Virus record (IMG/VR): IMGVR_UViG_3300037199_000176
Coordinates: 1-27,131 of that record
Direction: 5' to 3' (one strand)
DNA length: 27,131 bases
Source of the DNA: a virus
In this document: one piece after another, positions 1,497 through 23,988 of the stretch
How the letters are laid out: each line of letters opens with the position of its first letter
Position numbering within the stretch: the first letter of the stretch is position 1
Made by a program: the position numbers and the translations under genes
The notes under the pieces: generated by a model
Told to the model about the DNA's origin: nothing
The model's database searches: none
What the model saw: the letters and a program-made list of their open reading frames with translations, nothing else

Positions 1497-2240
1497 ATGA
1501 TGAGACTTGGCGACGCAATTGGGCAGATTCAGGCGCTTTTGGGAGACCCAAAGGGCCAATGGGTGAAGCGCGGCTATATTCTGCCGCTGCTCAACATCAC
1601 CTATGCCGCGGTAAACCTGAACATCAAGAACGCCAGCGCCAAGAATCTGACTGCCGTGGTGCCGATCCTGAACATTCCGGCCGGCACCACAAGCCTTTAC
1701 AAGTGGCAGAATGCAACCGCTTTCGCTGGCCAGCCAGTCGCTCAGCAGAACCCACCTGCACTGCTCGCCGGGCTTTTCGATGTGATGGAGATTTGGGTCA
1801 AGCCTGCCGGCGTTCCAGTGCAACGGTATTTCAAGATCAGAAACATTGGCACCTTGCCGCACACAAACCCAAGCCTGATGAACTCCAATGGACTGGGTGG
1901 TCCGCTTTACTATTCGATGATCGGCAACAAACTTGAAATCACGCCTGTGAACGAGCCGATTGACATTGAGGTCACCGGCAAATTCAACCCGCAGATGCTG
2001 GTAACTGACGATGACCTGTTGTGCACGCACGAAGACGTTTGGATCCCGACCTGTTATGAAAGTGCGGCGACGGCCGGGGTGGAGCGCAGCAATCCAGCGA
2101 TTCTGGAAGGTTATGCCACGAAAGGCCAGGCCGCGGAAGACAACATCATTGCCGAACTGATGCGCCAGAAGCAGGCTGAGCCAGCGCGATTCCAGCGTAT
2201 GTGCCGGGATAGCGGGCTAGCTCAGTGGTTTTGGAACTAA
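1497..2240 (+). CDS. Probable head-tail adaptor (portal-binding) protein
   Basis: This encodes 247 residues starting ATG ATG; the second ATG at 1500 is an equally possible start. The first 45 residues ('LGDAIGQIQALLGDPKGQWVKRGYILPLLN...') follow the pattern seen in phage adaptor/connector proteins of the gp6/gp4/gp11 type: an amphipathic helix, 'LLGDP.G.W', then a helix with 'LN.aY..vN'. The middle and C-terminal parts are beta-rich, with a segment 'NKLEITPVNEPIDIEVTGKF' like the strands of such adaptors, followed by a helical tail. In T7 the equivalent gene (gp11, 196 residues) lies directly before the nozzle gene. Here one gene, the DUF3494 protein, is inserted between them. The assignment rests on N-terminal pattern and gene order; structure prediction would settle it. 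Confidence 0.55.
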   Translation: MMRLGDAIGQIQALLGDPKGQWVKRGYILPLLNITYAAVNLNIKNASAKNLTAVVPILNIPAGTTSLYKWQNATAFAGQPVAQQNPPALLAGLFDVMEIWVKPAGVPVQRYFKIRNIGTLPHTNPSLMNSNGLGGPLYYSMIGNKLEITPVNEPIDIEVTGKFNPQMLVTDDDLLCTHEDVWIPTCYESAATAGVERSNPAILEGYATKGQAAEDNIIAELMRQKQAEPARFQRMCRDSGLAQWFWN

Positions 2241-2268: not shown

Positions 2269-3363
2269 ATGATTTCACTGCAACTAATCGACGTGTCGCC
2301 GGCAGAAAACCCGGACACATTGACATTTCTGGCGAAGTTTTCGGCAAACTACGGCGTAAACGGAGTGGGCGACCCACTCAACCTGGCGCCATACTCAGCT
2401 GGAAACAACCCGCTCGGATTCACCAACCCAAACCAGATTCCAACGCCGGAATTGCCGTTTGCATACACCCAGGCGCCGACGGTTGAAGCGGAAGACCTTG
2501 GTGGATACTATGTAAACCCGCATCCCCTGATTATGCCCGCTCCGATAGAAGGAGTGGCCCAGGGTATCGCTCCAGTGAACGGGTTTGCACTGCGCATGTA
2601 TGCACCTGGAGGAGTTGAATTGCCAACCGGCACATCGTATGCCGCCTCGGGCGCTGGAACGCAGGCCGCCTTTTTAGGAGCAGCAGGTAATTATGCTTTG
2701 CTTGCTTCAGCCGGCATCACCAACACCGGAAACACCACGGTTGTGGGCGGCAACATTGGATCGGTTCCAACGAGCAGCATTACGGGCTTCCCGCCGGGGC
2801 TTCTGACTGCGCCGGCGGTGATTGACAACAGCGCCAATGCGACAGCTGCTCAGGTTGCTCTTGCCGCCGCAATTGCGCACTACCAGGGGTTGACGCCGAC
2901 GCTTTCTGGCCTTGCCAACCTAAGCACCGGAGGTAACGGTTCGACCATTGCAACTTGGACCCCTGGCGTTTACGTTGGAGCTGCTGGCTTGACGATGCCC
3001 ACCGGCATTATTCTGGATGCCCAGGGAAACCCCAACGCCACGTTTATTTTTATCGCCGGATCGACGATCAACCTTGCCAGTGGCCAGACGATCTCTCTGG
3101 CTAACGGCGCCCAGGCGCAAAACGTTGTATTCGTGGCGGGAAGCGCTTTCACTTCCGTAGCAACCTCCACTGTTAATGGCAACATCCTGGCGGTAAGTGG
3201 CATCACTCTAGGCGGTGGAACATTGAACGGCCGCGCTCTTGTGACGACCGGCCCGGTTACCATTTCCGCAGCCACTGCTATTACTGCCTCGCCAAATGTG
3301 AGCGCACTTACTGGTCCCAGCTCTGCTATTCAACTCGCCATCACTCTTCCGCACAACCAGTAG
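2269..3363 (+). CDS. Virion-module protein with C-terminal DUF3494 (ice-binding-type) domain
   Basis: This encodes 364 residues, starting at an ATG after GAGAGAGGAC. Residues from about 134 to 345 read as a DUF3494 domain: 'LGAAGNYALLASAGITNTG', then 'GGNIGSVP.SSITGF', 'ATWTPGVY', 'DAQGNPNATFIFIAGSTI', 'GAQAQNVVFVAGSA', 'NGNILAVSGITL' and 'LNGRALVTTGPVTI'. These are the hallmark segments of this right-handed beta-solenoid family, whose characterised members bind ice and some of which serve as adhesin tips. Residues 1-130 are a separate, Pro/Asn-rich region ending in a short beta-type segment ('GFALRMYAPGGVELPTG'). There is no signal peptide, unlike typical secreted family members, which fits assembly onto a virion. 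It sits between the adaptor and nozzle genes. Ice binding is not implied: the fold could serve host attachment or capsid decoration. The family call is strong; the role is inference. Confidence 0.85.
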   Translation: MISLQLIDVSPAENPDTLTFLAKFSANYGVNGVGDPLNLAPYSAGNNPLGFTNPNQIPTPELPFAYTQAPTVEAEDLGGYYVNPHPLIMPAPIEGVAQGIAPVNGFALRMYAPGGVELPTGTSYAASGAGTQAAFLGAAGNYALLASAGITNTGNTTVVGGNIGSVPTSSITGFPPGLLTAPAVIDNSANATAAQVALAAAIAHYQGLTPTLSGLANLSTGGNGSTIATWTPGVYVGAAGLTMPTGIILDAQGNPNATFIFIAGSTINLASGQTISLANGAQAQNVVFVAGSAFTSVATSTVNGNILAVSGITLGGGTLNGRALVTTGPVTISAATAITASPNVSALTGPSSAIQLAITLPHNQ

Positions 3364-3378
3364 CCACGGGGCCAGACA

Positions 3379-6300
3379 ATGCAATGGTTTGGAAAGCCGG
3401 TAGTCTTTAACCGGTTTCTCGGCCAGGTGGACCAGGACGATCCGACGAATTTACCGATCGGCCTGGCTGCCCTGTGCCGTAATACGGACTTTACCCGGGA
3501 ATCTCCCGGCGTGACGTGCGCCAGCACGCGCGCCGGGATCAATCTGGCCATGCAAACCAGTGTGCAAGCTCAGATTACCGGAGCTGGATTCTTCCAGTAC
3601 GAGCCTGAGTTGGCAACCGAAACCTTCTTCGATATGCCCTACGTCTTCGACGCCGCAGGCAATCTCTGGCGCGAGTATCCAGTAGGCACTGGCCGCATGG
3701 TCAAGATCCCCGCAACCCCTCTTTTCAGTCCTCCCCTAAAATCTCACATGATTGGCTGCAACGCCGAGAATAAGGTTTGGCAGGCCTTCAGCGATCTGAA
3801 TGTGCCGACCGGGCCTGGCCTCTGCTTCGATCCCAAGCAAATTCAAAACAACACCGGCAAGCCGCCGCTCAATCCTATCGGGATGAAGCCGGTGGGCTGG
3901 TACTGGCAGCCGAACACCGACTGCCTCGCGATGGAGGTTTGCTGCCCTTCAACGCCATCAACAGGCAACGGCCACACTTATCAGGCGCAGAACGCTGGCG
4001 CGACCGGTCCGAATCAGCCTACCTGGCCTCTCACTACTTCAACGCCAGTAAGTCCTGTCACTGTCACCGAGGTTCTCTCGGCCGCACAGATCGCGCAAGG
4101 TTTGGTTCCTGTCATCTGGAAAGAAAACACCATGGCGATGGCGAACCGTTTGCCTGTTCCAGCTACGGCGGTTCTCACGGTAGGATCAGGTGGAAGCTTT
4201 GCCGGCGGTCAGGATGTCTACATTGCGGTAACGTTTGTCAATAACCAGGGAGAGACGACGCCCAGCGTGGCCGCCGTGGCCGTCAATGTAAGTTCGGGCG
4301 CATCGGTTTCCGTTGCAATCCCCGCTCTGAATACGCTGCCAAATTGGATTGCGAATCTCTCAGCCTCTTACGTGCCGCTCGGCATGAACGTTTACGTTGC
4401 CACGGTTGCAACCGGCAATCTAGCGCCACCTTTTTCAGATTACAAAGAATTCAATGGTCTGTTTTCTCTCGGAACCAATGCAGTCGTCACAGGACTTGGA
4501 AGCGGAAGCGCGCCGCCAAACCTTACAACGGCGCGCGTAGTGCCAGGTCAGTTGCCAACGCCGGATGTCCAGGTGCAAATCCAGCGCATTCCGGCAAACA
4601 GCACGGTAACGCCTCCGCCGGCGGTAGGATTGACTTTGGTTAATGGAGCCGGGACGATACCGCTTGGCTCGACCTTATATGTGGTTTTGACGTTATTGAA
4701 CTCGGCCGGAGAAACCACAGCCGGAGGAAGTTCTAACATCACCACCACGGCAGCGAATCAAGGAGTTCAACTTGATTTAGCTCAAGCATCGAGCTATGGT
4801 CCCACGGTTACGGGAGTCAATGCCTATGTTGCCGTGTTTGCCAGCGGACAGTCGCCCACCAATCCAATCATCTACCACCTGTACAACACCTCAGGCCCTT
4901 ATACCCCGGGCACGACGCCCATCATCGCAAACAATGTATTGACGGGAAACACGCCTCCCATAAACAACACGGCGACACTGCCAGTGGGAGGATTCCCCTC
5001 TGGCCGCGATGTCTATGTTCTGCAGACTTACACAAACGACAACGGAGAGACCAAGGCCGGCCCGACCAATTCTATTATCAACACCAACGCTGACGACTCC
5101 ATACTCGTGACCGTGGCCGTTCCCGAGGACGCCGACAACAACAAACTTTACACAATTAAATCGGTGGGAATTTATGAGGCGGATGTTGCAACAGGAACTC
5201 CTGCCCCTCCGTCTACCGCCTTTGCGCTTGTCGGCTACTACCAGCCGGGAGACACTCCATTTATTTTGAACACCGCGGCTGGCCAGAATCCTCCCACTTC
5301 GAACGGAACTGGCCCCGGCGGAGCAATCGTGGCGGATACGGAGACCGGCGGCGCCAATGGCGGGCAGGGCTACCGCTATGCTGCTCTGCTGTGGATGAAC
5401 ACAAATGAGACAGTTTCAGGCTTCACTATTGCGAGCGTGATCCAGTACGACGTGGATGAGGATGGCTGGGAAATCGGGATTTTCAATATTCTCAGTGGGC
5501 CATCCAACGTTGTAGCCAGACTTATCGCTTTCACTGGCGCGGATGCCTCGCAGGATGGACCGTTTAACTGGTCTGGTCTAGTCAATCTTACGTCGCCCAG
5601 CCAAAATGTAGTCTGGCCGACAACCACGCTGATCGACGACGTAGAACAATCGGCAACAGCGATCTTCGACAATGTAACCACCCAGGCCAACTTCAACTTT
5701 ACGGATACCTGGATGGACACCGAAAACAATGTCGATGATCGAACGGACATACTAGCCCCCTTCCAAGCCTGCCGAATTGATTACCTCAAGACAGTCAACT
5801 GTCTGGCTTACAGCGGCGTGCTGGGCTACTCTGGGGGCGGTCTGGTTTCAATCGGCGGCGATCCAGAAAGTGTCTATGCAGATACCGGCCCCGTTCCTTT
5901 TCCTTCGGACGGACAGCGCTGCTTTGGATTCACCGACGCCTACAAGAGCACAATCTTTGCGCTCAGAGAGAAGGGCGGATATGTACTAACTCCAAACACC
6001 GGCAATGCCAGTAGCTGGCAGGCGGTACAGCGTTGGAGCGATGTAGGCCCGTGCGGATTCAGAGCCTGGGATGCAAACGGAAAGTTTATTGTCTTTGTGC
6101 ATCGCAGCGGACTGTATAAGTACGACGAGAGCGATCCGGACATGATGAGTAAGGAGGTTCCTCGTCAGTGGTCTACAATCAACTGGGCTGCGGCCAAGAA
6201 TATCTGTGTCACGATCGATGAAGATACGCACACGGTAAGGATTCAGGTTCCGACCGGAGTTAGCACGGTAAACAACCAAGAGTTTGTTCTGAGTTATCTC

Positions 6301-6933
6301 GAAGGATGGAACAGCCCCATTCACTTTTCTACTTTCAGCGGCAAGGAAATCTCCATGGACGCGGCTCGCCGCTGGAGCTTCAACGATGTAGCTGCTACGC
6401 TCTGCCTGCGCATGGATCGAACCTTGCCCCCTGGACCGGGATTTATCGACGGACCGGATTGGACCACCCAGCCAGATTCGAGTTTTGGAGTAAGTCAGAT
6501 AATCTACGGAGACAGTTCTCCAGATGGCGCTCTGCAGGCGAGAACGCCGGGCATCTACAGCGACAACGGACAAGGTATCGACTGGGAGTGGGAGTCAGTC
6601 TGCGCCGGCCTGATGCAGGCAGTTTGCAAGCCCGAGGGTGTCAATCTCAACGCATTGGGAATTGGCCGCATCTATTGGAGTTTCCTTGCCGCGCGCGATC
6701 AGGACGCCGACCCGGGCGGACCAAAAGAGAACGAGATACCCATCGGTGATGGTTACTTCGATTTAGCGTCCGAACAGAAAGTTGGGATCACCGGCAAGTG
6801 CGGCCCTGAAATCAGCGAGTTTTTCAGGGTGAGATTCACAAACGGCAAGCAGCCGGGATGCTGGGCGAGCCTGAAATCCATGACTGTATTTCTGATTCCG
6901 TTCACCGTTGGCCGCGGAGAGTGGGAAGGATGA
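3379..6933 (+). CDS. Large tail protein, probable nozzle with Ig-like repeats
   Basis: This encodes 1184 residues, starting at an ATG 15 bases after the DUF3494 stop. The N-terminus ('FLGQVDQDDPTNLPIGLAAL..NTDFTRESPG') resembles the start of podovirus nozzle proteins (T7 gp12 type), which thread through a beta-propeller. Residues about 260-640 hold three Ig-like beta repeats, each with a core of the form D/T-L/V-Y-V/I-x-x-T-x-x-N-x-x-GET, near residues 276, 430 and 540. From about 690 to the end the sequence is beta-rich with propeller-like blades ('RIDYLKTVNCLAYSGVLGYS', 'RCFGFTDAYKSTIFALREKG', 'RWSDVGPCGFRAWDANGKFI'). There is no signal peptide. T7 gp12 is about 790 residues, so the extra length is largely accounted for by the repeat block. 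The stop overlaps the next start (ATGA). A tail structural role is likely; nozzle specifically is probable. Confidence 0.65.
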   Translation: MQWFGKPVVFNRFLGQVDQDDPTNLPIGLAALCRNTDFTRESPGVTCASTRAGINLAMQTSVQAQITGAGFFQYEPELATETFFDMPYVFDAAGNLWREYPVGTGRMVKIPATPLFSPPLKSHMIGCNAENKVWQAFSDLNVPTGPGLCFDPKQIQNNTGKPPLNPIGMKPVGWYWQPNTDCLAMEVCCPSTPSTGNGHTYQAQNAGATGPNQPTWPLTTSTPVSPVTVTEVLSAAQIAQGLVPVIWKENTMAMANRLPVPATAVLTVGSGGSFAGGQDVYIAVTFVNNQGETTPSVAAVAVNVSSGASVSVAIPALNTLPNWIANLSASYVPLGMNVYVATVATGNLAPPFSDYKEFNGLFSLGTNAVVTGLGSGSAPPNLTTARVVPGQLPTPDVQVQIQRIPANSTVTPPPAVGLTLVNGAGTIPLGSTLYVVLTLLNSAGETTAGGSSNITTTAANQGVQLDLAQASSYGPTVTGVNAYVAVFASGQSPTNPIIYHLYNTSGPYTPGTTPIIANNVLTGNTPPINNTATLPVGGFPSGRDVYVLQTYTNDNGETKAGPTNSIINTNADDSILVTVAVPEDADNNKLYTIKSVGIYEADVATGTPAPPSTAFALVGYYQPGDTPFILNTAAGQNPPTSNGTGPGGAIVADTETGGANGGQGYRYAALLWMNTNETVSGFTIASVIQYDVDEDGWEIGIFNILSGPSNVVARLIAFTGADASQDGPFNWSGLVNLTSPSQNVVWPTTTLIDDVEQSATAIFDNVTTQANFNFTDTWMDTENNVDDRTDILAPFQACRIDYLKTVNCLAYSGVLGYSGGGLVSIGGDPESVYADTGPVPFPSDGQRCFGFTDAYKSTIFALREKGGYVLTPNTGNASSWQAVQRWSDVGPCGFRAWDANGKFIVFVHRSGLYKYDESDPDMMSKEVPRQWSTINWAAAKNICVTIDEDTHTVRIQVPTGVSTVNNQEFVLSYLEGWNSPIHFSTFSGKEISMDAARRWSFNDVAATLCLRMDRTLPPGPGFIDGPDWTTQPDSSFGVSQIIYGDSSPDGALQARTPGIYSDNGQGIDWEWESVCAGLMQAVCKPEGVNLNALGIGRIYWSFLAARDQDADPGGPKENEIPIGDGYFDLASEQKVGITGKCGPEISEFFRVRFTNGKQPGCWASLKSMTVFLIPFTVGRGEWEG

Positions 6934-9727: not shown

Positions 9728-11131
9728 ATGGACGGTCCGTATTCTTCGAATGTTCAGGATCCGGCGGCGTGGGAGGGAATGCCCGCGCCGTCCAGCGCAG
9801 GAGACCCGGATGAGCGGATGCTTGAAGCGGCGCGCGCTGCCGCGGCACTGCCGCGCGCGCGCGCCGCGGCGCCGCAGTTGTTCCCAGCGAGCCAGCGCTC
9901 AGCGCCAACAGAGCCAGCAACTGAAACCGATCCCGCCAAGCTGGCCGGTTTGGGATTACAGCGCGAGATGGGCGCGGGCAACGAGTTGATGGCAAATTCC
10001 CGGGAGATGCAGGACGATCCTGCCTTTCTTGCCTCACAACAAAAAACTACGACCGATGAACTGAACCGTCCCGATGTTTCAACGTACAAGCCTGGTTTCG
10101 GTACTCGGTTGCTGCGCGGATTGCGCGGGGCGGCCGGTGGCATGATGGAGGGTGCCGGCAAGAGCGGAATTTTAGGGCCTGCAATTGGCGCGCTCGGCGG
10201 AGCAATAAACCCAGCATCGACGGGCGGTAAAGCATACGGAGCACCGACCGACACTTACGACATCGCAATGAACAAGTACAATCAGACGCTTGCGGCGGAC
10301 AAAGAACAATCTGAAAATGTCGCCGCAAACTTCAAGCGGGCTCAGGATCTACGTGTAGCTCGCGATAAGGGATTCAATGAAGGCGGAGAAGCCTTTGGTC
10401 GCACGGTAACCGGTGGAGTTGATTTGGCAAAGTTGCCAGGAGAACTGGAGAACCAGCAGGATCCGGGCGGAAAAGATCGCGAGGCGATGCAGACCCAGAC
10501 TCGTCGACTGAACTTTGCCAATGCTGACCCGATTCTGAGCAAGCCGGGCTACACGCGCAGCCGCTATTTGGCGACTGGCGAGGTCCAACCCGCGCGCGAG
10601 GGCACCTTCGAAGAACAGGAGTACAACCGCCAGGTGGGCCAATGGCAGCGCGCAAACCCGAACCAAAAGATGACGCCGGACGTTGAGCAATCGATTTATC
10701 AGTCTGTGCGTGGCAAGAGCGGCGCGGGTGACGCGGGCGACGCGGCGGTGAGTGCGATTGTGGCCGACGCAACCGGGAAAAAGCAGGAATTCATCAACAA
10801 CTACGACCATCAACCCGACGGCAGCTACCTGCGCAAGGGCGCAGCAATGTATGAAATGGCAAATCGTAAGGCGGGCGATCTGCTCACGCCAGACCAGTAT
10901 GCCGCGAAAGTCGATCAGTTTCGGCTGGATGCGAACAAACAACTCGCGAAACACGGGGCGCAGATTGGGGCAGATGGCCAGGTAGTGAGTCGTCAAGCTC
11001 CAGGCGCTAACCCAGCGGCCAATGCGCCGGCAGCCGCCGCAAAGCAATCGCCCGCGCCAGATGGGACTCGCCGTCAAGCGCCCAATGGAACAATAGAAGT
11101 AAAACGCGCTGGAAAATGGGTGCCTGAATAA
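9728..11131 (+). CDS. Helical internal virion protein candidate (gp15-like position)
   Basis: The preferred start is the ATG at 9728, five bases after GGGGAGG; a TTG at 9725 is in frame. The protein is 467 residues. The first 125 residues are Ala/Pro/Arg-rich and probably disordered. Residues about 127-165 are a Gly/Ala-rich hydrophobic stretch ('LLRGLRGAAGGMMEGAG', then 'ILGPAIGALGGAI') that could insert in a membrane. Residues about 177-225 form a charged coiled-coil-like helix. Further helices follow ('VEQSIYQSVRGK', 'AAKVDQFRLDANKQLAKHG'), and the tail is Ala/Pro-rich, ending 'GTIEVKRAGKWVPE'. It overlaps the giant gene by one base (TAATG). Order and helical nature suggest an ejection protein like T7 gp15 (747 residues), but it is shorter and no sequence match is claimed. 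Confidence 0.6.
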   Translation: MDGPYSSNVQDPAAWEGMPAPSSAGDPDERMLEAARAAAALPRARAAAPQLFPASQRSAPTEPATETDPAKLAGLGLQREMGAGNELMANSREMQDDPAFLASQQKTTTDELNRPDVSTYKPGFGTRLLRGLRGAAGGMMEGAGKSGILGPAIGALGGAINPASTGGKAYGAPTDTYDIAMNKYNQTLAADKEQSENVAANFKRAQDLRVARDKGFNEGGEAFGRTVTGGVDLAKLPGELENQQDPGGKDREAMQTQTRRLNFANADPILSKPGYTRSRYLATGEVQPAREGTFEEQEYNRQVGQWQRANPNQKMTPDVEQSIYQSVRGKSGAGDAGDAAVSAIVADATGKKQEFINNYDHQPDGSYLRKGAAMYEMANRKAGDLLTPDQYAAKVDQFRLDANKQLAKHGAQIGADGQVVSRQAPGANPAANAPAAAAKQSPAPDGTRRQAPNGTIEVKRAGKWVPE

Positions 11132-14100
11132 TGGATGGAGACCAAGTTCAATTCAGTGATGTGCCGAGCGGCTACAAGATTCTCACTGCACCAACTTCTG
11201 CGCCGGTACTGGCCTATAGCGACATCCCTGCAAATTATAAAGTGATTGGCCCAGCGCCAACTCCCAAAGCCTCTCCTGTGGTCGGTCCGGTTGCTCCGCG
11301 CCCACCCGTGCGCGTCGCGCCTCCCACCTTCCATGATCTCTACGGTCTACCGCCAGCGCCAACATTGAGCCAGCGGCTCACCGGCGCATGGGAGGGACTA
11401 AAGACTGGCGGATTGCCTGGAGCTGAAGTAGGATATGTGACAGCTGGAACGCCTACACAGCCAACGGCAGCACCTGGAGACATTCCGAATTCAGTCAATA
11501 GTTTGGAGGATATTAATCGTCAGAATCGCGAGCAGAGGCGCGCTCGTCCGGCGACCGTAGGTGCCGGACTCAAGCCGCTGATGCCCGAGGAAGCGGCAAC
11601 TCCTCTCAGCCCAGCGGAGCGAGAATTCAACAGGCAGAACCCACCCGAAAGCCAGTTTACTTTGCCTGTTAAGCCTCAGCCGCGAAATGCGGAGGAAGAA
11701 TTCCAGAAGAGCATCCGCGCGGCGCGGGGTACCCAAGACACGCTACGCACGACACCACCACCCGCAATTACAAGTCAAAAGATACTTAATCCTGCAAAAA
11801 TTGATCCGATAACGCATCAACCAATCCCCGGAACTGAGGTTCTTGCGCCATCGGAGGATGTAAAGCCTTTCGCTCTTGAACAAACTCCAACCGGACCGCA
11901 GCTTGTGCCAGTTTCACCAGTGAGGCTGGCGCAGCCACAAATGCCCAGGGCGGCGATGAAAGAGGAGCCGCTGATGGACGCTCTGGTGCCTGTTGCACCA
12001 TCACTGGAAAATGCCCAGCGGCGAGCGTACATGTCGCCGGAAACCTGGGAGCAGTTGCAGAATCGGGCCAAAGAACAGAGATATGCTGACACCGGGGAAC
12101 GGGAAAAGAACTGGAACCAGTTGATGCCGCGGTTGATCCCTACCTCCGAGCAGACCGCCAAAACCATCGCCCTGACGCCAGATGAGCGCACACAATATGA
12201 GCAGGACAAAGCTGACGTGGCCGCAGGGCGCAAGGCTGCACCCAGGCCTGGCGGGCATGCACCCAACCCCCACAATCTTCCGGTAGTAAACACCGCAATT
12301 TGGCTTAGAGGCCAGGAAGGCGAAAAACGGCAAGATGACCCTATCGCCGCGAAGATGACCGATGCGGTACAGGACTTTGCTTCCGGCCTTTCACGCGTCG
12401 ACCAGGCGGCTCTGATTGCCGCGCTGGGCGGAAAAGACGTTATTTCAAAGCTGGCCACCGTCTATTTTGGCTATCAAGCGGGCAAGGGAACAATTAAAGC
12501 TGGGCGCGCTACGGTGTCCGATGTCGAGGCTGGAAATAATCCACAGGCGGCCTACGACGCGACAAGCGCGGTTCTAAATGCCTTAATGTTTGGAACCATG
12601 GCACGTCATGGCGTGCACGCGGCTGGCATTGAAGTGCATCCCGATGTCTTAACACCAGACCAAACTGCCCCCGGCGGATTTAGAGTGAAGAAATTCCCTG
12701 GCGCAACTGTCCGAGGTCCAGGATTCTCTGGGGCTGTAGGCCCAAACATTGGCGGCGGCGTTCGCGGAAATGTGCGAGTCGGTCCGTTCCAAGGCTCAGC
12801 AACCATAGGAGGCGAGCAGGGATTTACCGTCAAGGGCGGTCGTATTCCATCCCCTGCGCCTGTTCCAGAAACTGATCCATCTCGGCTTCTTGCCGAAAGT
12901 TCCACAGTCGGCCAGCCCACAGTGTCCGAGGCCGTGGCCGGTGAAAATGTTCCACGTGGAACATCGCCCGAGCGCCCAGTCGTCCAAGCGAGCACTAATC
13001 CTGCTGAGATCCGCACCTCCGCAGAGGCACAGAAAGCGCCTCTTGAACAGAACGTACAGGCCGCGATTTCCCAAGTACCCGGGGCGCAGGTGGAAGGAGC
13101 GCGTGTAAAAACTGCTGATTCTGTTGCAAACAAAGAAGATCGCGGCAAACCTCCAGAAACTAATATTGACCATCTGGGCGCGCGCGTTTCTGTGCCGACT
13201 CAGGCTGACGTGCCGGCAGTCCAGCAGGCAATTGAAACGCAGTTGCCGGTGGTCTCCAAAGAGAAGATCACAAGCAATGGCGTTAACGCCGACCAGTACG
13301 GAATCCAGACCGGTGCGCCTGGTGAACCTAATCAAGTCAGTGAGTTACAGGTTGTAACCAAGCCGGTTGCGGAGGCCATGAAAGCAACCGATGATCTCTA
13401 CGCCGAGCAGAAGAAAGCGCTGGCCACAGGCGACCAGGCTAAGGCTGACGAGTTGGGCAAACAGATCAAGGCAAAAATGGAAGCGGCTCAGCAGGAAGGC
13501 CAAGCAGCCGAGAATGCGGTAGTGACCTCTGGCGACGTGCGCGGACAAATTGCATATTCCATCAGTACGGCGGAAGGAACGCCGGTAGGCAAATTGCGCG
13601 TAGAAGAAATAGCGCCCGGCAAGGTTGAGATCAAAGGTTCAAGCGTCCGAATCCAAGGCGAGGGATACGGCAGTAAACTCTACGAAGAAACGATCAAGGC
13701 TGAGAACGCCAAAGGAAACACGGTGGTTTCAGACCAGAACGAAGTTACTTCCACCTCAGCTGCCGGAGTTTGGGATTCTCTGGTCAGACGGGGTTTAGCT
13801 GAAAAGGTGGGCAACACTTATCAGGCCACGCCGCGGACCTGGGTGCTCGAAAACCAGAACCGCGCCATCTTGCAGGAGTCGCCGGAACAAACCATGCTGG
13901 GCAATCCCCGGCCCCAGGAGACACCCAATGCCGTACAAGAGCCAAGCGCAGCAGGCGTTCTTCCACGCGAACAAGGCCAAGCTTCAGAAGCAGGGAGTGA
14001 ACGTCTCGGAGTGGGACGAGTCCAGCAAGGGACTCAAGCTCCCACCCCGCAAGCAACCCAAGGCACCGAAGCCGCCCCGCCAGTAATCCGGCCAGCGGTT

Positions 14101-17100
14101 GGTGGCCATGACGGTCGAGCGACCGACGTTCTGACGCCAACCCGCAAACTGCCGGGAACTTATCGTCTGGTGGAAGCGGCAGATCTGATGCCCAGCCATC
14201 ATCCTGCCAGCTTCGAACCAAACCCCGAATACCCAGCGGGCGTACAGGAACGCGATTACAAAAATTCAAAGGAAGCGCAGAACCGAGTTATTACCCAAGC
14301 GCAAAACTACGATCCGGCCTACACCGTCAATACCAACCCGGATGCGGTGAATGGGCCTCCGGTGATCACGCCAGATGGAACCGTGCTCGGCGGTAACTCG
14401 CGTGCGATGAGTACGCAGCGCATTTATGCCGAGGGGAGCGGAGCGGCATATCGGGACGCGATCAAGCGCGATGCCGCAACTTACGGGCTGACTCCGGAGC
14501 AAGTGGACGGAATGAACCAGCCCGTACTGGTGCGCCAGATCGACCGGCCAGCGAGCCTGGACGAAGCCAAGCGCATCGGTTCCGAGCTGAACAAGAGCAT
14601 GACCGGCGCGCTGGGCGTGAGCGAGAAGGCTGTGAGTGCCGGCCAGAAGTTGAAGCCGGAGACCTTGCAGGCCGTAAGCGCGATGCAGAATGAAGATGAT
14701 AGCAGCTTGCGCGAGGTGCTCAGTCGCAAAGGCCCGGAGATTCTGCAGATGATGGTACAGGATGGCGCGCTGACCGAGCGCGAGCGTCCACAGTATCTGG
14801 AATCCGACGGCAAGTCGCTGAGTGAAGAGGGCAAGACGTTTATCGAACGCGCGATGATGGGCTCGGTCTTCGATGACTCGCACTTGTTGGATGCTGCGCC
14901 GAAGTCGATCAAGGACAAGATCGGGAAAAGCCTGGGATCAATCTCGGCGATTGGCTCGCGGCCTGACGAATGGAACCTCGTGCCCGCCTTGCGCCCAGCA
15001 TTGCTGCGCGCAGTGGCTGAGCATACCGGGATTGCCCAGCGCGGCTCGACGGTAGAGTTGACGGTCAACCAGCAGAGTATGTTTGGGCCGGGAAGAAATC
15101 CGGTGGTTGATGCGCTGGTGCGCGTGCTCGACGAAAAGCCCAACGCTGTACGGGCGCGCTTTACGCAGTTTGCAACCGACGCCAAGCAGAATCTGCCAGG
15201 CGAAACCAGAATGTTTGGCGGCGGCGAGGCTTTTGATGCTTTCAACCACGCTTTTGGGAGTAAACTGACTGACGAGGAGTTCCACAATGGCATCAGCGAA
15301 ATCCTCCGCACCGAGACCACCGCAGCGGCAGTCCAGCCGCAACCGGCTCCGGCAAGGAATGAGGGCATACCTCAACGCGTCGCCGGAGAGCCGGCACGTG
15401 GCGGCGGCGAAGGCAATGGGATTGCCGCCGGTGCATCGCGACCTCCCGCAGAACCAGCCACCACAGGCGCCGCCGGAAGGAACGCCGGAATCGAAGCTAG
15501 CCGGCGGCCTGAGCTAAGAGCCCCGCGGCCACCCCAAGCGTCGTCAAACATCTTTAAGCAAGGCCATCAAAGCACGCCGGTTCTGGTGAAAGATGCCGAC
15601 GGTAACTGGGTCCACGCAACCCTCGATTACTTCAATGGCGGAGTGAATGGCGCCGCCCGCCGCGGCCGTGTAACTCTCGCCAGCGGTCTAAAGATGGACC
15701 CCGTCTCCGAGAACGATTTGAAAATTGTCCCTACGCCCGAAAAACTCAAGATCCCATCAATCAGTGGAACTCCTCAGGAAAAGCAAGTTATTGCTTACAC
15801 CGAGAGCCACCTTCCGGAGCTGATGGATGAGTACCGAGTCAAAAACATGAGCCAGGGTGTTCTGACCATAGCAACTGATGCGGCCAAAAAGTTATATCCG
15901 GTATTTCAAAGGGATCCGGTGCGCGGCGAACGCGACGTTCACTCTTCAGCTAAAGCCGTTGCCGATGCTGCACTGAAAGCAGAGTTAGCCACTCCCATAT
16001 TGCCGGACCGCCGTAATGTCGAAATTGTCACCGCGTCTCCTGGAAGCGGTAAGACTTGGAACCAGTCGGGAGCACTGCCGGATGGGGTAGGTCTGCGCAT
16101 TGAAGACATAGCAGCTAAGTTGGACGATGCAACAGCGTTGATTGATAAACTTCTGGCTGCTGGCCGGGAGCCTCGTATCAACTGGATTCATGTAGATGAT
16201 CCGGCAAAGACCGTGCGGCGCATGGCGCTGCGCGCGGTTGGTCATGGAGGGAAGGAGGGAATCGGTAGAACGGTTCCGCTGAGCTACATGGCCGATGCTT
16301 ATTCAAGCGTGCCGCGGGTCTTGCTGGAGATGATGGATAAGTACGGGGACCGGATCGGCGTAAGCGGCACAGAGAACTCTGGCGCAAGGGACGCTGCATA
16401 TCCCATAAAAAATGTTCATCAAACCCTGCAGGATGCTTTACAATGGAATCACGAGAAGACGCTGGAGCGGATGAGAACTGAACTGGAGACCCTGAAGCAG
16501 GAGGGTATTTTCCAGGGTGAGAGAGGAAAAGCAATTTATGACATCGCCGCCTATTCCCCCGAAGAAGAATCTGGCCGCGAAATCGCCCCGCCTGAATCCG
16601 CAGGAAGAAGCGCAGAAGATGGTGGAGCAAACGACCGCATCGGCCAACGAGCGGGCGAAGCGGGAGCCGAACGCCCAGGTCAGGTATTAGCGACTTCTAA
16701 AAACAGCGAAAGACGCGAAGGCGAAGGCGGCGGCATCCAACCAGGTGCCGCCGCTGACGTTTTGGCGAATGAGCAAAAAGAGAGCGAGACCCGCGCGGCG
16801 CGGCGCACTGAGACACTTCCAGCAGCCAACGCGCGCAACCTGGCCGAGAATGCCGCCCAGCACAAGACGAGCGTGGTTGACGTTGCCGGTCACAAAGCTG
16901 TTTTGCTGGACCCGGACGGCGAGGGTGTCTGGCATCGGCTTTTCCGTAAAGTCAAGGGAGATGCAGGTGAGAATCCGCTGGGAGCGGGATCAAGCTGGAC
17001 CGGGATAAGCCTGGACCGGCGCGGAGTCAACACCGCTCTGGATCTTTTGAAGAAGAATGGTGAAGGTGAGGTTACTAGCGTCAAGGATGGATATGATCGC

Positions 17101-20100
17101 ATGGCGCGCGCGTTGCGCGAGGCCCAGACATCCACTGGCGGCGTTACCGTGCTGCGCGGCGATTACCGGGCGGACACGGCGCGCGAAGAGGCTACACATC
17201 ATTGGCAGCGCGAGCACGCGCTCGATCGCAGTTATGCGATGGGATCTGTGGCCGACCAGCAGGAGTTTCAAGATGTTGTCAGTCTTTTGAAGGATCAGGG
17301 ATACCGGAACGCCAAGCCGCGCACCATAGCAATGGAACTGATGGCGAAAGCGCTGGCCGGAGATGCTGAGTTCAAAATTTCTGACGATCAGCGTGAATCT
17401 CTGATACGCTCATTTCTGACGGAAGCAATCGATGAAAAGGGTATTGGAATTTTAGACAACCTGCCCGAGGTTGACCCGCGAGCACGGCCGATTGTCGAGG
17501 ATGTGCGGAGGGAGTATGAAGCCAGAAATGAAGGCGGCGGAAAACAGGCGCCTGGAATCAAAGGCGGACCGGCTGGCCGAGAAGTACGGCCCAAAGATGA
17601 CAGGGCATTTTCACGTGCAGCGTCCGGCGAGCGAGGATCCGGTGCTGATGGCAGCGAACGAGGTGTTTCAAAAAGCGGCGCGGAGGAAAGTGAACTAGGG
17701 GCGTTCCAGCGCAAAGCTCCCAAGCCGCCGGTGCGCTCGGCCGCCCTGCCAGGGATGGAAGGCGACATCGAAGCACAGAGGACAGCCGCCGGCGAGGAGC
17801 AGGGCCGCCAACTCACTGACCGCTTGCTCGCGCCCAGGCCCAGCATCAGCCGGGCGGCTGGTGAGATGGAGAGGGAATCGCCACTCTTCCGCGATACTGA
17901 GGCCAGTGGACAAGGTTCGCTCTTCCAGCGCGCGAAGGACGATCCCGAGACCAAGACCCAAAATCCCTGGTTTCTGAAATCAGCCAAAGTCATCGAGCAG
18001 AAGATGCGCGGGCCCATGCCGGGCGACGCGCTGATTCACATGCTCGAAAACAATGGCGTAAAGCCAGACGAGATCAAGTGGAGTGGCCTTGAGGATCTGC
18101 GCGGCAAGCCGCGAATAACGCCGGACGAAGTAAAGGAACATCTCGCCGCCAATGCAATCCAGATCAAAGAAGTTACCCACAAAGAACTCAGCGAACCAAT
18201 CGAGAATATCATTGCGCGCGGCGAAGGTCTGGCTGAACGGCCAACGCGCTACGGTAGTTACACTCTTCCCGGCGGCGAGAACTATCGGGAGATGCTGCTG
18301 ACGCTGCCGCCAAAAACAGTTCCGCAATATTTCATTGGTTACAAGGGTGGCTCAACAATCGGCCAAGGATACTCAAACCTAGCTGAAGCTAAGTCTGAAA
18401 TGGAGGATTTGTTTGCGGGGAGGGATGATATTGAAATCAGGCCCGGAAGAGGTGACCGCTCAATTACAACGAGAAATGCAGATAACTTTACCTCTGGCCA
18501 CTGGGACGAACCCAACGTACTCGGCCACGTTCGTTTCAATGACCGCACTGGACCGAACGGCGAGAAACTCCTGCACATCGAGGAGTTACAGAGCGACTGG
18601 CATCAGAAGGGGCGGACAAAAGGCTATGCTACTCCGCTAACTGCCGAAGAGGAGGCGGAGTTCAAAAAGCTTCTTTCCAAGGGAACAATGGGGCGGGATC
18701 GCGCCGAAGAAGATCAATTCAGTCAGTTAGTAGACCGAAAGAATCCTGGCAGCGGAGCAACCGTTCCCGATGCCCCCTTCAAGAAGACCTGGCCGGAATT
18801 ACTGTTGAAGCGCATGGTCCGCTACGCAGCCGAGAACGGCTATGACGGCATCAGTTGGACACCGGGCGAGCAACAGGCGGAGCGGTACGACCTAAGCAAA
18901 CAGATCGATGCGGTCCACTACAGGACAGCCGGGCCGGACAGATTCCAGGTTGAGGCCTACGCACCAGGCCCGCGCAGCGTCTTGTCTCAAATAGGAACCG
19001 CTCAAGAACTTGAAGATGTTGTAGGCAAAGACATCGTTAAAAAGATGGTCGCCGGTGAAGGCGAAGAAGTGGGCGGCGCTGGCAATTACCGGAAGCTCTC
19101 TGGCGTTGACCTCAAGGTCGGCGGCGAAGGCATGAAGGGCTTCTACGACAAGATCGTGCCCGACCTGGCCAACAAGATCGGCAAGCCGTTCGGTGCAAAG
19201 GTGGGGGAGACAAAGATCGATACCATCCCCGGTGGAGCAAGGGAGTTTGGAGATGTAGAGGACCGCAAAGATAACCCAGATTTTAAGAAACAGACTGTTC
19301 CCTATCTTCCCGTCACCGACGCCATGCGTGGCACAGTTCTGCGCGAGGGCCAGCCACTCTTTCAAAAGCCCGGCGAGACCAACCCAACCAGCAACACCGG
19401 ACAGCCATGGGGACGCAAGAACACCCGCGCCCAGCAGCAACTAGCCTTCGGCGGTCCGTCGACCTGGCAACGCGCGCTGGGCGGCCTGCGCGACTGGCGC
19501 GACGACAATCCCGACGCCGGTGACGATCTTCGCTCCCTGATGCGCGAGAAGCGCGGCGAGATGGACCGCAACGTTTTGCAGTTGAAGAAGTCTCTGGAGG
19601 ATGCCCGCAAGGACTTTGTGACCATGCCGCGCGAAGAGGTCACCAAGTTTATCGACGATGTGGAACATGGGCGGTTCAGAGCAATTGATCCCAAGTACCG
19701 AGACATGGCTCAAGGCCTGCATGAAATCTTTGTCTCTGATCGCGAGGAATTACAGAGGCTGGACCCAGAGAAGCTGAAAAACTTCTACGAAAACTACTTC
19801 CCGCATATTTGGGATCACTCCGGCAAGGTAGCACGGATGATGCAGGCGCAGAGCGGGACCAAACCGCTCTTTGGTTCGGGCGCCTTCTTGAAACACAGAA
19901 CACTCTATCCGCCAACCTTCAAGGAAGGCATTGAGCTAGGCTTGGAACCAAAGACCTGGAACCCAGTGGATATGGCACTATTGAAGCACGCGGAGATCCA
20001 GCGCTACATCTTTGGCCTGAAAACCGTCCAGGATATGAAGGCAATCGGCCTGACGCGGGTCTTCAAGACTGCCGCGGACGCTCCGCCAAACTGGGTTCAA

Positions 20101-21942
20101 CTCGACGATCGCTTTGCCACTGTGACGCGCCGCAATGACGCCGGCGAAATGGTGTTGGAGGGCCACTACTACGCGCCGGCGGAGGCAGCCAAGAGCTTCA
20201 ACAACTTTGTCAGCAGGGGACTAGCTGGGCGAAACGCGGTAATCGATTCAGTCTTCAAGCTGAACCGCTCAATGAATGCCGTGCAGTTGGGCCTGAGCGC
20301 CTTCCACGCGACCGCCAGCACGATCAACCTGGGGATTGGAGACATTGCCCTGGGACTGGAGGAGTTGAGCCAAGGCCGGCCAGTCTCGGCAGCAGCGCAT
20401 ATAGCGCGCGGCGCCGTCCCTGGAGCCTCACTGGCTAGGCATCTGCTGGTGGGCAACAAGGTGATGCGCGAGTACTTGGAGCCCGGCTCCGCCGCAAAGT
20501 ACGAAGCGGAGGCTAACTGGGTGGCGCGCGCCGGCGGCCGACCAGAGCAAGGCGTGAATCTCGAGCCGGCCCGCTGGCGCCAAGTGACAGAGGACATCCG
20601 CCGGGGCGACTATTTCAAGGGCGCGAAAGGAGCAATCCCGGGCACAATCGATCTGGCGGGTAGTTGGCTGATGCATGGCATGATTCCGCGGATCAAGTTG
20701 GGATCCTTTCAAGATATGGCGGCGAACATTCTCAAAGAGGCGGACCACAACAATTGGAGCGAAGAAGAGATCAGGAGCCGGATGCAGTCGGCCTGGGACT
20801 CAGTGGATAACCGCTATGGCCAGATGGTCTATGACAACCGCTTTTGGAACCGCGTCGCGCTTGAGATTGCCCAGCTTGGAATCCGCAGCGTCGGCTGGCA
20901 GGGCGGAACCTACATGGAGTACGGCGGCGGAGTGACAGACGCAGCCAAGGCTTTTGCGCGGGCAGCCTCGCGGAAGAAGCCCGAAGTTACGCACAAGCTG
21001 GCTTTCAGCTTGGCCACGCCGATCTATACGGCTCTGATTGCGGCAGTTGGAACCTACCTGATGACCGGCCACAAACCAGACACCGACAAGTATGGACTGA
21101 AGGCCTACAGCATGATCGAGACGGCCGACGGAACCATGCTCAGCATTCCCGGATACTCGAAAAACCTGATGTCGGTTGGGGAGGACGTAGCTCAAAACGG
21201 GATCCCCTGGCGCACAGCTGTCAACACTGCCAGCCCGGCAATCTCAACATCGCTTGAGATGATGCAGAACAAGGATTATTACGGCAACGAGATCAGGAAC
21301 GAGGACGATCCTTACATCTCAAAGACGCTGGGCAAGAGCCAGACCGGAGAATACGCCAAGTTCATTGCCAGCCAGTACATACCGTTTACGGTGAAGAGCT
21401 TCCAACAGCAGCGCCAGCGTGCCGGCGAAGGCGAGTTTTCCGACATCAGTGAGGGCAAGAGCGGCGGCATGAGCTTGCTCAGCTATGCAGGTTTTCAGCC
21501 GGCGACACAGGTCATGCAGAACTCATCTGCCATGAATCTGGCCGAGCACTACCGCAACGAGACACCCCAGGCGCCGCGGACAGCAGAGCAGGCCGAGCAC
21601 AACCGAACCTTTCGGAATCTGGTCAAGGCGTTGGAAAACGGCAACCTCAACCAGGAAAAACTAAATGAGGCGATGGAAAAGGGCCGCATAACCAGCCGAC
21701 AGTATAGCGAGGCGGTCCGTGAAGCCCGCTGGACGCCACTGGAGCGCGTGACCAGCCGGCTCAGCTTTACCCAGGCCATGAAGGTATGGCAGAAAGCTAA
21801 TCCGCAAGAGAAGGCCTCCCTGCACGATCTGATGGCCGAGAAGAGCCAGCACCAACTGGAGACGGTCTACGAGCAGGAGGGCGACGAGGCCGCGCAGACT
21901 CTCCAGGCCAGGTTGAAGCAGCAGGGAATTTTGACTGAGTAG
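11131..21942 (+). CDS. Giant 3603-residue polyvalent internal virion (ejection) protein
   Basis: The gene starts at an ATG overlapping the previous stop and ends just before a terminator-like hairpin. Regions in order: Pro/Gly-rich residues 1-650 with an N-terminal duplication; RSH (RelA/SpoT)-like 655-790 (R658, K660, D680-x-x-G-x-R685, E738-L-Q740); GNAT-like 800-905 ('RIQGEGYGSKLYEE'); DdrB-type ParB-like 990-1400 ('VQERDY', G1088-N-S-R1091); possible SH3-like barrel 1476-1530; zeta-like P-loop kinase 1545-1815 (Walker A near 1637-1642, preceded by 'YPVFQRDPVRGERDVH'); a region with E2019, E2020, H2023, H2024 and H2029; a phage polyprotein domain 2270-2740 ('HWDEPNVLGHVRF', 'IEELQSDWHQ', 'GYDGISWTPGEQQ'); and a helical C-terminal region 2750-3603 with hydrophobic stretches near 3052 and 3289-3312. 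T7 gp16 is 1318 residues and begins with a lytic transglycosylase; none is visible here. Delivery with the DNA is inferred from context. The domains are read by eye. Confidence 0.8.
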   Translation: MDGDQVQFSDVPSGYKILTAPTSAPVLAYSDIPANYKVIGPAPTPKASPVVGPVAPRPPVRVAPPTFHDLYGLPPAPTLSQRLTGAWEGLKTGGLPGAEVGYVTAGTPTQPTAAPGDIPNSVNSLEDINRQNREQRRARPATVGAGLKPLMPEEAATPLSPAEREFNRQNPPESQFTLPVKPQPRNAEEEFQKSIRAARGTQDTLRTTPPPAITSQKILNPAKIDPITHQPIPGTEVLAPSEDVKPFALEQTPTGPQLVPVSPVRLAQPQMPRAAMKEEPLMDALVPVAPSLENAQRRAYMSPETWEQLQNRAKEQRYADTGEREKNWNQLMPRLIPTSEQTAKTIALTPDERTQYEQDKADVAAGRKAAPRPGGHAPNPHNLPVVNTAIWLRGQEGEKRQDDPIAAKMTDAVQDFASGLSRVDQAALIAALGGKDVISKLATVYFGYQAGKGTIKAGRATVSDVEAGNNPQAAYDATSAVLNALMFGTMARHGVHAAGIEVHPDVLTPDQTAPGGFRVKKFPGATVRGPGFSGAVGPNIGGGVRGNVRVGPFQGSATIGGEQGFTVKGGRIPSPAPVPETDPSRLLAESSTVGQPTVSEAVAGENVPRGTSPERPVVQASTNPAEIRTSAEAQKAPLEQNVQAAISQVPGAQVEGARVKTADSVANKEDRGKPPETNIDHLGARVSVPTQADVPAVQQAIETQLPVVSKEKITSNGVNADQYGIQTGAPGEPNQVSELQVVTKPVAEAMKATDDLYAEQKKALATGDQAKADELGKQIKAKMEAAQQEGQAAENAVVTSGDVRGQIAYSISTAEGTPVGKLRVEEIAPGKVEIKGSSVRIQGEGYGSKLYEETIKAENAKGNTVVSDQNEVTSTSAAGVWDSLVRRGLAEKVGNTYQATPRTWVLENQNRAILQESPEQTMLGNPRPQETPNAVQEPSAAGVLPREQGQASEAGSERLGVGRVQQGTQAPTPQATQGTEAAPPVIRPAVGGHDGRATDVLTPTRKLPGTYRLVEAADLMPSHHPASFEPNPEYPAGVQERDYKNSKEAQNRVITQAQNYDPAYTVNTNPDAVNGPPVITPDGTVLGGNSRAMSTQRIYAEGSGAAYRDAIKRDAATYGLTPEQVDGMNQPVLVRQIDRPASLDEAKRIGSELNKSMTGALGVSEKAVSAGQKLKPETLQAVSAMQNEDDSSLREVLSRKGPEILQMMVQDGALTERERPQYLESDGKSLSEEGKTFIERAMMGSVFDDSHLLDAAPKSIKDKIGKSLGSISAIGSRPDEWNLVPALRPALLRAVAEHTGIAQRGSTVELTVNQQSMFGPGRNPVVDALVRVLDEKPNAVRARFTQFATDAKQNLPGETRMFGGGEAFDAFNHAFGSKLTDEEFHNGISEILRTETTAAAVQPQPAPARNEGIPQRVAGEPARGGGEGNGIAAGASRPPAEPATTGAAGRNAGIEASRRPELRAPRPPQASSNIFKQGHQSTPVLVKDADGNWVHATLDYFNGGVNGAARRGRVTLASGLKMDPVSENDLKIVPTPEKLKIPSISGTPQEKQVIAYTESHLPELMDEYRVKNMSQGVLTIATDAAKKLYPVFQRDPVRGERDVHSSAKAVADAALKAELATPILPDRRNVEIVTASPGSGKTWNQSGALPDGVGLRIEDIAAKLDDATALIDKLLAAGREPRINWIHVDDPAKTVRRMALRAVGHGGKEGIGRTVPLSYMADAYSSVPRVLLEMMDKYGDRIGVSGTENSGARDAAYPIKNVHQTLQDALQWNHEKTLERMRTELETLKQEGIFQGERGKAIYDIAAYSPEEESGREIAPPESAGRSAEDGGANDRIGQRAGEAGAERPGQVLATSKNSERREGEGGGIQPGAAADVLANEQKESETRAARRTETLPAANARNLAENAAQHKTSVVDVAGHKAVLLDPDGEGVWHRLFRKVKGDAGENPLGAGSSWTGISLDRRGVNTALDLLKKNGEGEVTSVKDGYDRMARALREAQTSTGGVTVLRGDYRADTAREEATHHWQREHALDRSYAMGSVADQQEFQDVVSLLKDQGYRNAKPRTIAMELMAKALAGDAEFKISDDQRESLIRSFLTEAIDEKGIGILDNLPEVDPRARPIVEDVRREYEARNEGGGKQAPGIKGGPAGREVRPKDDRAFSRAASGERGSGADGSERGVSKSGAEESELGAFQRKAPKPPVRSAALPGMEGDIEAQRTAAGEEQGRQLTDRLLAPRPSISRAAGEMERESPLFRDTEASGQGSLFQRAKDDPETKTQNPWFLKSAKVIEQKMRGPMPGDALIHMLENNGVKPDEIKWSGLEDLRGKPRITPDEVKEHLAANAIQIKEVTHKELSEPIENIIARGEGLAERPTRYGSYTLPGGENYREMLLTLPPKTVPQYFIGYKGGSTIGQGYSNLAEAKSEMEDLFAGRDDIEIRPGRGDRSITTRNADNFTSGHWDEPNVLGHVRFNDRTGPNGEKLLHIEELQSDWHQKGRTKGYATPLTAEEEAEFKKLLSKGTMGRDRAEEDQFSQLVDRKNPGSGATVPDAPFKKTWPELLLKRMVRYAAENGYDGISWTPGEQQAERYDLSKQIDAVHYRTAGPDRFQVEAYAPGPRSVLSQIGTAQELEDVVGKDIVKKMVAGEGEEVGGAGNYRKLSGVDLKVGGEGMKGFYDKIVPDLANKIGKPFGAKVGETKIDTIPGGAREFGDVEDRKDNPDFKKQTVPYLPVTDAMRGTVLREGQPLFQKPGETNPTSNTGQPWGRKNTRAQQQLAFGGPSTWQRALGGLRDWRDDNPDAGDDLRSLMREKRGEMDRNVLQLKKSLEDARKDFVTMPREEVTKFIDDVEHGRFRAIDPKYRDMAQGLHEIFVSDREELQRLDPEKLKNFYENYFPHIWDHSGKVARMMQAQSGTKPLFGSGAFLKHRTLYPPTFKEGIELGLEPKTWNPVDMALLKHAEIQRYIFGLKTVQDMKAIGLTRVFKTAADAPPNWVQLDDRFATVTRRNDAGEMVLEGHYYAPAEAAKSFNNFVSRGLAGRNAVIDSVFKLNRSMNAVQLGLSAFHATASTINLGIGDIALGLEELSQGRPVSAAAHIARGAVPGASLARHLLVGNKVMREYLEPGSAAKYEAEANWVARAGGRPEQGVNLEPARWRQVTEDIRRGDYFKGAKGAIPGTIDLAGSWLMHGMIPRIKLGSFQDMAANILKEADHNNWSEEEIRSRMQSAWDSVDNRYGQMVYDNRFWNRVALEIAQLGIRSVGWQGGTYMEYGGGVTDAAKAFARAASRKKPEVTHKLAFSLATPIYTALIAAVGTYLMTGHKPDTDKYGLKAYSMIETADGTMLSIPGYSKNLMSVGEDVAQNGIPWRTAVNTASPAISTSLEMMQNKDYYGNEIRNEDDPYISKTLGKSQTGEYAKFIASQYIPFTVKSFQQQRQRAGEGEFSDISEGKSGGMSLLSYAGFQPATQVMQNSSAMNLAEHYRNETPQAPRTAEQAEHNRTFRNLVKALENGNLNQEKLNEAMEKGRITSRQYSEAVREARWTPLERVTSRLSFTQAMKVWQKANPQEKASLHDLMAEKSQHQLETVYEQEGDEAAQTLQARLKQQGILTE
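12947..12964. promoter_or_regulatory. parS: parS-type ParB-binding palindrome inside the giant gene
   Basis: An 18-base perfect palindrome, ATGTTCCACGTGGAACAT, lies here. Its central 16 bases (12948-12963) match the form of bacterial chromosomal parS sites (consensus TGTTTCACGTGAAACA; the variant with TTCC/GGAA arms is also used by bacteria). It lies in the disordered part of the giant protein, coding for 'ENVPRGTS', so the protein there would tolerate a sequence fixed for DNA reasons. Only one copy was seen in the window. No ParA or conventional ParB gene is present, so a host ParB would be the likely partner. The sequence match is direct; function is inference. Confidence 0.7.
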
Positions 21943-23655: not shown

Positions 23656-23988
23656 ATGGCAGTTCTGAATCTACGAAACGTTCCTGAGGATCTGGTATGT
23701 CAACTCAGGGCTCAGGCAGCGCTGGCGGGCCGAGGAAACCACTTCCACGAGTACTGCATTGGCCTGCTGGAAGTGGTGGTCGCCCAGGTGGCCAATCAGC
23801 GAACCATAAAGCGGACGCCAACAGATCAGTCGCTGCCTCCGGGGCGCTCTCCGCAGGTTCGAGAGTTCTACCTTGGCCATCCCGGAAGCCGGCCCGAGAA
23901 AGAGATTTTGCAAAATCGAGCACAGATTATTCCAGAAATTATTCCAGAGCCTCCTTCCGATGAACCTCTGGAGACTCGGATCACCTGA
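23656..23988 (+). CDS. Ribbon-helix-helix-like DNA-binding protein
   Basis: The preferred start is the ATG at 23656 with GAAAGG upstream (110 residues); an in-frame GTG at 23629 overlaps the preceding gene. The N-terminus 'MAVLNLRNVPEDLVCQLRAQAALAGRGNHFHEYCIGLLEVVV' matches the ribbon-helix-helix (Arc/FitA/VapB-like) plan: a strand, 'VPEDL', helix, turn, helix. Residues 55-110 are Pro/Arg-rich and probably extended, ending 'LETRIT'. The last codon region overlaps the TerL start (TGATG), so the two are translationally coupled. It could autoregulate the packaging genes, act as antitoxin-like protein without a visible toxin, or assist TerS. Its tail resembles the end of the TerS candidate, which supports a packaging link. 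Confidence 0.6.
   Translation: MAVLNLRNVPEDLVCQLRAQAALAGRGNHFHEYCIGLLEVVVAQVANQRTIKRTPTDQSLPPGRSPQVREFYLGHPGSRPEKEILQNRAQIIPEIIPEPPSDEPLETRIT

Follow-up and report, generated by a model that had tools for sequence, protein, structure and literature searches.

An exchangeable DUF3494 domain with a predicted ice face in a small structural-cluster protein of a virus from a metagenome

The window, which is the whole stretch of DNA analyzed here, is an entire IMG/VR virus record of 27,131 bases (IMGVR_UViG_3300037199_000176). Its gene at positions 2269–3363 encodes a protein of 364 residues that carries an inserted DUF3494 (Ice_binding) domain, and the remainder of the protein is referred to as the scaffold. 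The gene is divided as follows; loci in other viral records are given L numbers.

2269..3363, plus strand: gene of 364 residues, whose product is a small protein of the structural cluster and contains the DUF3494 (Ice_binding) insertion (open reading frame call, Pfam)
2269..2658, plus strand: N-terminal part of the scaffold, residues 1–130, common to the domain-less 148-residue orthologues of L009 and L010 (87% amino acid identity) and to that of L011 (57%)
2401..3330, plus strand: probable allele-replacement tract (identity dip versus L009)
2671..3288, plus strand: inserted DUF3494 β-solenoid, residues 135–340 (Pfam, PDB search, AlphaFold2, Foldseek)
2833..2886, plus strand: long α-helix of the DUF3494 fold, residues 189–206 (AlphaFold2)
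3308..3360, plus strand: C-terminal end of the scaffold, the same as in the orthologues that lack the domain (...AIxLAITLPHNQ)

The inserted part is, with near certainty, a true DUF3494 domain. Residues 145–336 match PF11999 (Ice_binding/DUF3494) over profile positions 2–206 of 208 with 119.6 bits, far above the curated cut-off of 28.7 bits, and the E-value of 1.9e-34 rules out a chance resemblance. A sequence search of the PDB with the 364-residue protein returns matches from about residue 135, solely to DUF3494 ice-binding or antifreeze proteins (6eio, E = 3e-21), and a profile search likewise returns DUF3494 ice-binding proteins exclusively. The AlphaFold2 model, built from 49 phage sequences, has a predicted local distance difference test score (pLDDT) of 95–98 over residues ~140–340 and shows the irregular triangular β-solenoid and the long parallel α-helix of the family. 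All 31 Foldseek matches in the PDB at E ≤ 1e-3 are DUF3494 ice-binding proteins (IBPs; top match 7bwy, E = 1.7e-12, TMt 0.86), and the significant matches in the viral structure library BFVD are two Hyperionvirus DUF3494 proteins and nothing else. An earlier reading of the DNA made from the sequence only had claimed a DUF3494 domain that begins at about residue 134, follows a non-family N-terminal region and lacks a signal peptide; the profile, the predicted solenoid and the Foldseek matches bear out the domain, and the other three details are correct as well. The N-terminal 130 residues have no family match in Pfam or PHROG, and inspection by eye reveals no signal-like stretch at the N-terminus (MISLQLIDVSPAENPDTLTF), that is, no secretion signal of the kind that is usual, if not defining, in DUF3494 proteins. 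Pfam finds no immunoglobulin (Ig) family match in the protein, and its fold is a solenoid rather than an Ig β-sandwich.

Comparison with related records revealed alleles in which the insertion site is empty. L009 aligns with the window over bases 1–2624 at 96.4% identity and over 3331–3595 at 95.5%; L010 (65 kb) matches the flank 1–2624 at 93.7% and resumes at 3331 at 86.7%. In both, the orthologue consists of 148 residues, keeps both ends (C-terminus ...QIAITLPHNQ) and is missing the domain alone, so that presence and absence of the domain distinguish orthologues of close relatives. The L011 orthologue (146 residues, about 55% identical) is also without the domain, and PF11999 has no match anywhere in the L009, L010 and L011 records. 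L002 and L003 carry the domain in the identical slot, though their downstream gene is just 47–48% identical to that of the window. Because the scaffold also supplies the last ~18 residues of the protein (...AIQLAITLPHNQ), what we see is an insertion of the domain and not a C-terminal fusion; the fusion described in the sequence-only reading is accurate for the junction with the scaffold N-terminus and overlooked the scaffold C-terminus that follows. A frameshift or an assembly chimera is countered by the open frame, by a C-terminus like that of the sister phages and by the same arrangement in L002 and L003, which come from other assemblies. We conclude that the DUF3494 domain of this gene is very probably an exchangeable insertion.

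The insertion point lies just ahead of the last strand of the scaffold. The strand order of the DUF3494 fold is b1-b6-b5-b4-b3-b2, in which the first strand is located beside the last coil (PMC7277481); the two ends of the domain should therefore lie close together, an arrangement suited to insertion into a loop, as seen in the window gene and in the L050 tail sheath described below. The identity between the window and L009 is ~98% upstream, decreases to 86% at 2401–2550 and 78% at 2551–2624, and returns to 95% past the insertion. This dip and recovery fit an allele replacement, in which a diverged domain-bearing allele probably replaced the resident allele.

The domain is widespread among viral contigs, and its membership in a large phage-borne family was overlooked in the sequence-only reading. 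IMG/VR scans with the window domain and its relatives as queries detected it at 40–84% identity on at least 68 different viral contigs, which derive from 57 metagenomes, with the highest copy number, six domains, in a single 223-kb record. It is found in unrelated scaffolds: a tail sheath, the adaptor-adjacent small protein and other long structural-type proteins. The tail sheath of L050 (phrog_2839, E = 6.9e-24) contains DUF3494 at residues 287–491, whereas at least eight sheath loci (L102–L109, some of which may be near-copies; L102 is on a 223-kb contig and L105 on a 186-kb contig) show a gap of 4–6 residues at this place and are 85–91% identical to L050 over the part past the insert. Presence and absence are thus observed in the sheath as well. 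The sheaths of L110 and L120–L122 contain a different extra stretch of ~120–150 residues in the region of the L050 insert. In L005, L007, L019, L023, L026, L049 and L060, tandem paralogues that have the domain lie next to others that lack it. The orthologue of the L043 gene in L051 is domain-less.

Two further observations concern these proteins. A sheath gene at positions 5001–7829 of L111, orthologous to that of L050, is divided into open reading frames of 501 and 722 residues by a stop or frameshift, either real or an assembly error. A repeat of ~65 residues (YTGTITGG...AG..F.V.GF....NNGTF.C.AS...TLTL.N) is present in L004, L006, L043, L052, L054 and L110, that is, in DUF3494-bearing proteins and in a sheath (L110, residues ~230–300); the copies in L006 and L054 have no Pfam match, and the repeat is possibly another mobile virion domain.

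In a tree that includes 39 cellular domains, the window domain falls within an all-viral clade of 37 rows with a Shimodaira-Hasegawa approximate likelihood-ratio test (SH-aLRT) support of 99, and a second domain type forms an all-viral clade of 8 rows (SH-aLRT 100). Domains from unrelated scaffolds are closely related to each other in this tree. The cellular sample consists mostly of Bacteroidota and four actinobacterial plasmids, so a nearer cellular source in another phylum is possible. A plasmid search yielded actinobacterial relatives at 36–47% and one genome-contig scan a single match at 32%; no close cellular source was found. A tblastn search of 50,697 isolate phage records with four different domain queries gave no match, and homologues in Synechococcus phage S-SKS1 are mentioned in PMC11515562. 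The second type occurs in L015, L017 and L162 (contig 3300028800_000946) and in L013, and bears T-x-x-T on almost every rung (TAVT, TSLT, TTFT, TSIT, TTVT). L015 has two copies of it in one protein of 913 residues and five copies in the record.

To locate the predicted ice face, segments were mapped onto the window by alignment from the AnpIBP site (PMC7277481). Mutants of AnpIBP place the ice-binding site on the B face, which is built of six-residue segments with outward positions 1, 2, 4 and 6, and the FfIBP consensus is T-A/G-X-T/N (PMC7277481). The mapped segments are:

2710..2727, plus strand: predicted ice face, rung b1, AGITNT, residues 148–153
2773..2784, plus strand: predicted ice face, loop segment, SSIT, residues 169–172
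2983..3000, plus strand: predicted ice face, rung b2, AGLTMP, residues 239–244
3061..3078, plus strand: predicted ice face, rung b3, STINLA, residues 265–270
3142..3159, plus strand: predicted ice face, rung b4, SAFTSV, residues 292–297
3196..3213, plus strand: predicted ice face, rung b5, SGITLG, residues 310–315
3250..3267, plus strand: predicted ice face, rung b6, GPVTIS, residues 328–333

Column 4 of the window domain is Thr or Asn in all seven segments, and the strict motif [TSAG][TSAG]x[TN], scored over the seven, is present in six, compared with three of seven in the proven AnpIBP (counted by hand). The flat B face, with small residues and spaced Thr, Ser or Asn, constitutes a putative ice-binding site. 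Over the 47 viral domains, Thr occupies 79% of the column-4 cells, and Thr, Ser and Asn together 90% (Thr elsewhere in the domain, 12%), and columns 1 and 2 are Ala, Gly, Ser or Thr in 96–98%. The strict motif averages 5.86 of 7 in the viral domains and 2.59 in the 39 cellular domains; the expectation from random 4-mers of the same domains is 0.66 of 7. The exposed positions of the viral domains are less variable on the B face (1.09 bits) than on the C face (1.58 bits), with little difference in the cellular domains (1.73 versus 1.81 bits). The conservation of the B face, together with its motif, points to a function on that face, although the ligand is not thereby proven to be ice. Ice is the ligand that we predict, by a modest preference.

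The gene is flanked by two genes on the same strand:

1497..2240, plus strand: SU10-type head-tail adaptor, upstream gene (PF24175 SU10_adaptor, 29.4 bits)
3379..6933, plus strand: gene of 1184 residues in the nozzle position, downstream (nozzle identity unconfirmed)

The sequence-only reading had placed the domain between adaptor and nozzle genes. The adaptor is supported, as its score exceeds the PF24175 cut-off of 27 bits. The nozzle is unsupported: the label derives from gene order, and the 1184-residue protein has no match in Pfam, PHROG or the PDB, including any known nozzle. This downstream gene is conserved in L002, L003, L010 and L011. The window also encodes a large terminase at 23988–26759 (PHROG). 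Its Walker A motif is broken by an insert that resembles an intein and contains a LAGLIDADG domain (PF14528, E = 1e-6; junctions GGQSGGGK / RLDVDEPIPTPRG...NVTHN / TSFLAAD). The insert starts with Arg and not with Cys or Ser; having a Cys near block F and a Thr at +1, it may be a class 3 intein. A single open reading frame of 3603 residues at 11131–21942, whose sole Pfam match is ddrB-ParB (PF18763, E = 1.1e-19, residues 1004–1137), looks like a giant multi-domain protein that is possibly injected with the DNA.

The window protein most likely belongs to the virion and carries DUF3494 as an exchangeable domain for display. Our overall explanation, to which we assign a probability of roughly 0.55, is a virion-surface module with an ice-binding-competent face that acts like the Ig-like decoration domains of phages. 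In this view the phage is tailed and has an SU10-type adaptor, the gene would encode one of its small structural proteins, and a complete β-solenoid has been inserted in the loop before the last strand of the scaffold, where the side-by-side N- and C-terminal coils could let it enter without disturbing the host protein. The domain would be displayed on the surface of the particle, which is the probable location of the protein, and would be exchanged among phages as well as from one virion protein to another, unrelated one. The regular small-small-x-Thr/Asn array of its flat B face, like that of proven ice-binding proteins, probably serves the many-copy adsorption of virions to ice, or protects virions at growing or recrystallizing ice, in freezing soils and peat. 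The sequence-only reading had listed ice binding, freezing protection, attachment to ice-associated hosts and rigid adhesion or decoration without choosing among them; the empty-site alleles, the many scaffolds and the sheath insertion favor an adhesion or decoration module, with virion presence and ice binding as predictions. A broader proposal, namely that one mobile clade of ice-binding domains is common to phages of soil and permafrost, has entered their sheaths, adaptor-adjacent and other structural proteins and lets the virions bind ice directly, is tentative and falls somewhat short of even odds. The habitat that could be traced is that of metagenome 3300006638, the source of L047, L049 and L179, which is listed as permafrost from Utqiagvik, Alaska (PMC9387269).

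Several points weigh against this explanation. The structure model of the scaffold by itself has a pLDDT of 34, and no family match places the scaffold in the virion. Activity is not proven by motif counts, because DUF3494 IBPs lack a strict motif that all of them share (PMC7966756), and the high content of Ala, Gly, Thr and Ser over the entire domain makes small residues in columns 1 and 2 partly expected. Not every copy on a viral contig need be part of a virion, since the DUF3494 proteins of L008, L033, L057 and L060 start with secretion-like N-termini; they may be phage proteins that are secreted, or their contigs may come from hosts. Terminase models matched 8 of 49 domain-bearing or sister records, and the phage nature of many contigs therefore rests on IMG/VR; the viruses are divergent, and many of the records are fragments. 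A literature search of the IMG identifiers yielded no habitat for the other source metagenomes, including that of the window.

The strongest rival keeps the exchangeable virion decoration or adhesion domain and changes the ligand to a host polysaccharide, matrix, mineral or plant polymer, with the solenoid simply as a stable framework that offers a flat face rich in Thr. The genetic behavior is the same as that of phage Ig-like domains (PMC9230969), Ig-like He_PIG repeats co-occur in L036, and fresh alleles with and without the domain fit changing ligands. However, the open face that is conserved is the one to which the ice site maps, and its agreement with the FfIBP-type motif is closer than that of the cellular homologues, and every solved relative of the fold that was found is described as ice-binding or antifreeze. 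We consider a non-ice ligand a serious possibility at around one chance in three. Allele exchange between near-identical phages also resembles tail-tip diversification, as would be expected of a receptor-binding module whose exchange alters host range; this is unlikely, because the exposed B face varies less than the other open face, which is not the pattern of a receptor site that diversifies, and because insertion in a sheath and in several of the proteins that a single phage encodes fits a coating rather than a tip.

Still less probable is an auxiliary gene for host cryoprotection, whose free ice-binding protein would guard the infected cell, as proposed for Arctic contigs in PMC11515562, where three PF11999 genes of Arctic viral operational taxonomic units (vOTUs) are termed auxiliary. 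The secretion-like N-termini of L008, L033, L057 and L060 might fit such a role. For the window gene we reject it: the copy has no signal peptide and is inserted in a structural-cluster protein that sister phages retain without the domain, and the domain is also inserted in a tail sheath.

If the virion-display explanation with ice as the surface is true, it would describe an adaptation to freezing at the level of the virion, with a logic like that of phage adherence to mucus by Ig domains, and a mechanism for the retention and survival of phages in frozen soil, permafrost and peat. Viral PF11999 genes have so far been read as auxiliary genes for freeze protection of the host, and the insertion pattern would shift the domain onto the particle. 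That phages may carry ice-binding patches is a testable claim, for which otherwise near-identical phages provide a natural series of alleles with and without the domain. DUF3494 would also be a second fold, beside the Ig-like domains, among mobile virion display domains.

The window domain resembles the known PF11999 family (FfIBP, AnpIBP, EfcIBP (6eio), SfIBP, TisAFP and the Ca. Cryosericum IBPs) in profile, fold, capping helix and B-face architecture, and shares with FfIBP the column-4 Thr/Asn motif (PMC7277481). In contrast to these cellular and usually secreted or surface-anchored members, it lacks a signal peptide, is an insertion in a phage protein of the structural cluster and belongs to an all-viral clade. 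The Hyperionvirus proteins in BFVD also have a viral DUF3494 fold, but belong to a eukaryotic giant virus and share 17–25% sequence identity. The Arctic vOTU genes are members of the same Pfam family on viral contigs from cold sites; they are read as host auxiliary genes, and neither display on the virion nor insertion of the domain is described in the available part of PMC11515562. Phage Ig-like decoration domains, including the extra domains of tail sheaths, are likewise exchangeable, occur in many unrelated virion proteins, are absent from close relatives and are located away from the assembly core (PMC9230969), as the DUF3494 module would be in its presumed virion location. The module differs from them in its fold, a DUF3494 solenoid instead of an Ig sandwich, and in its predicted ligand, ice instead of carbohydrate.
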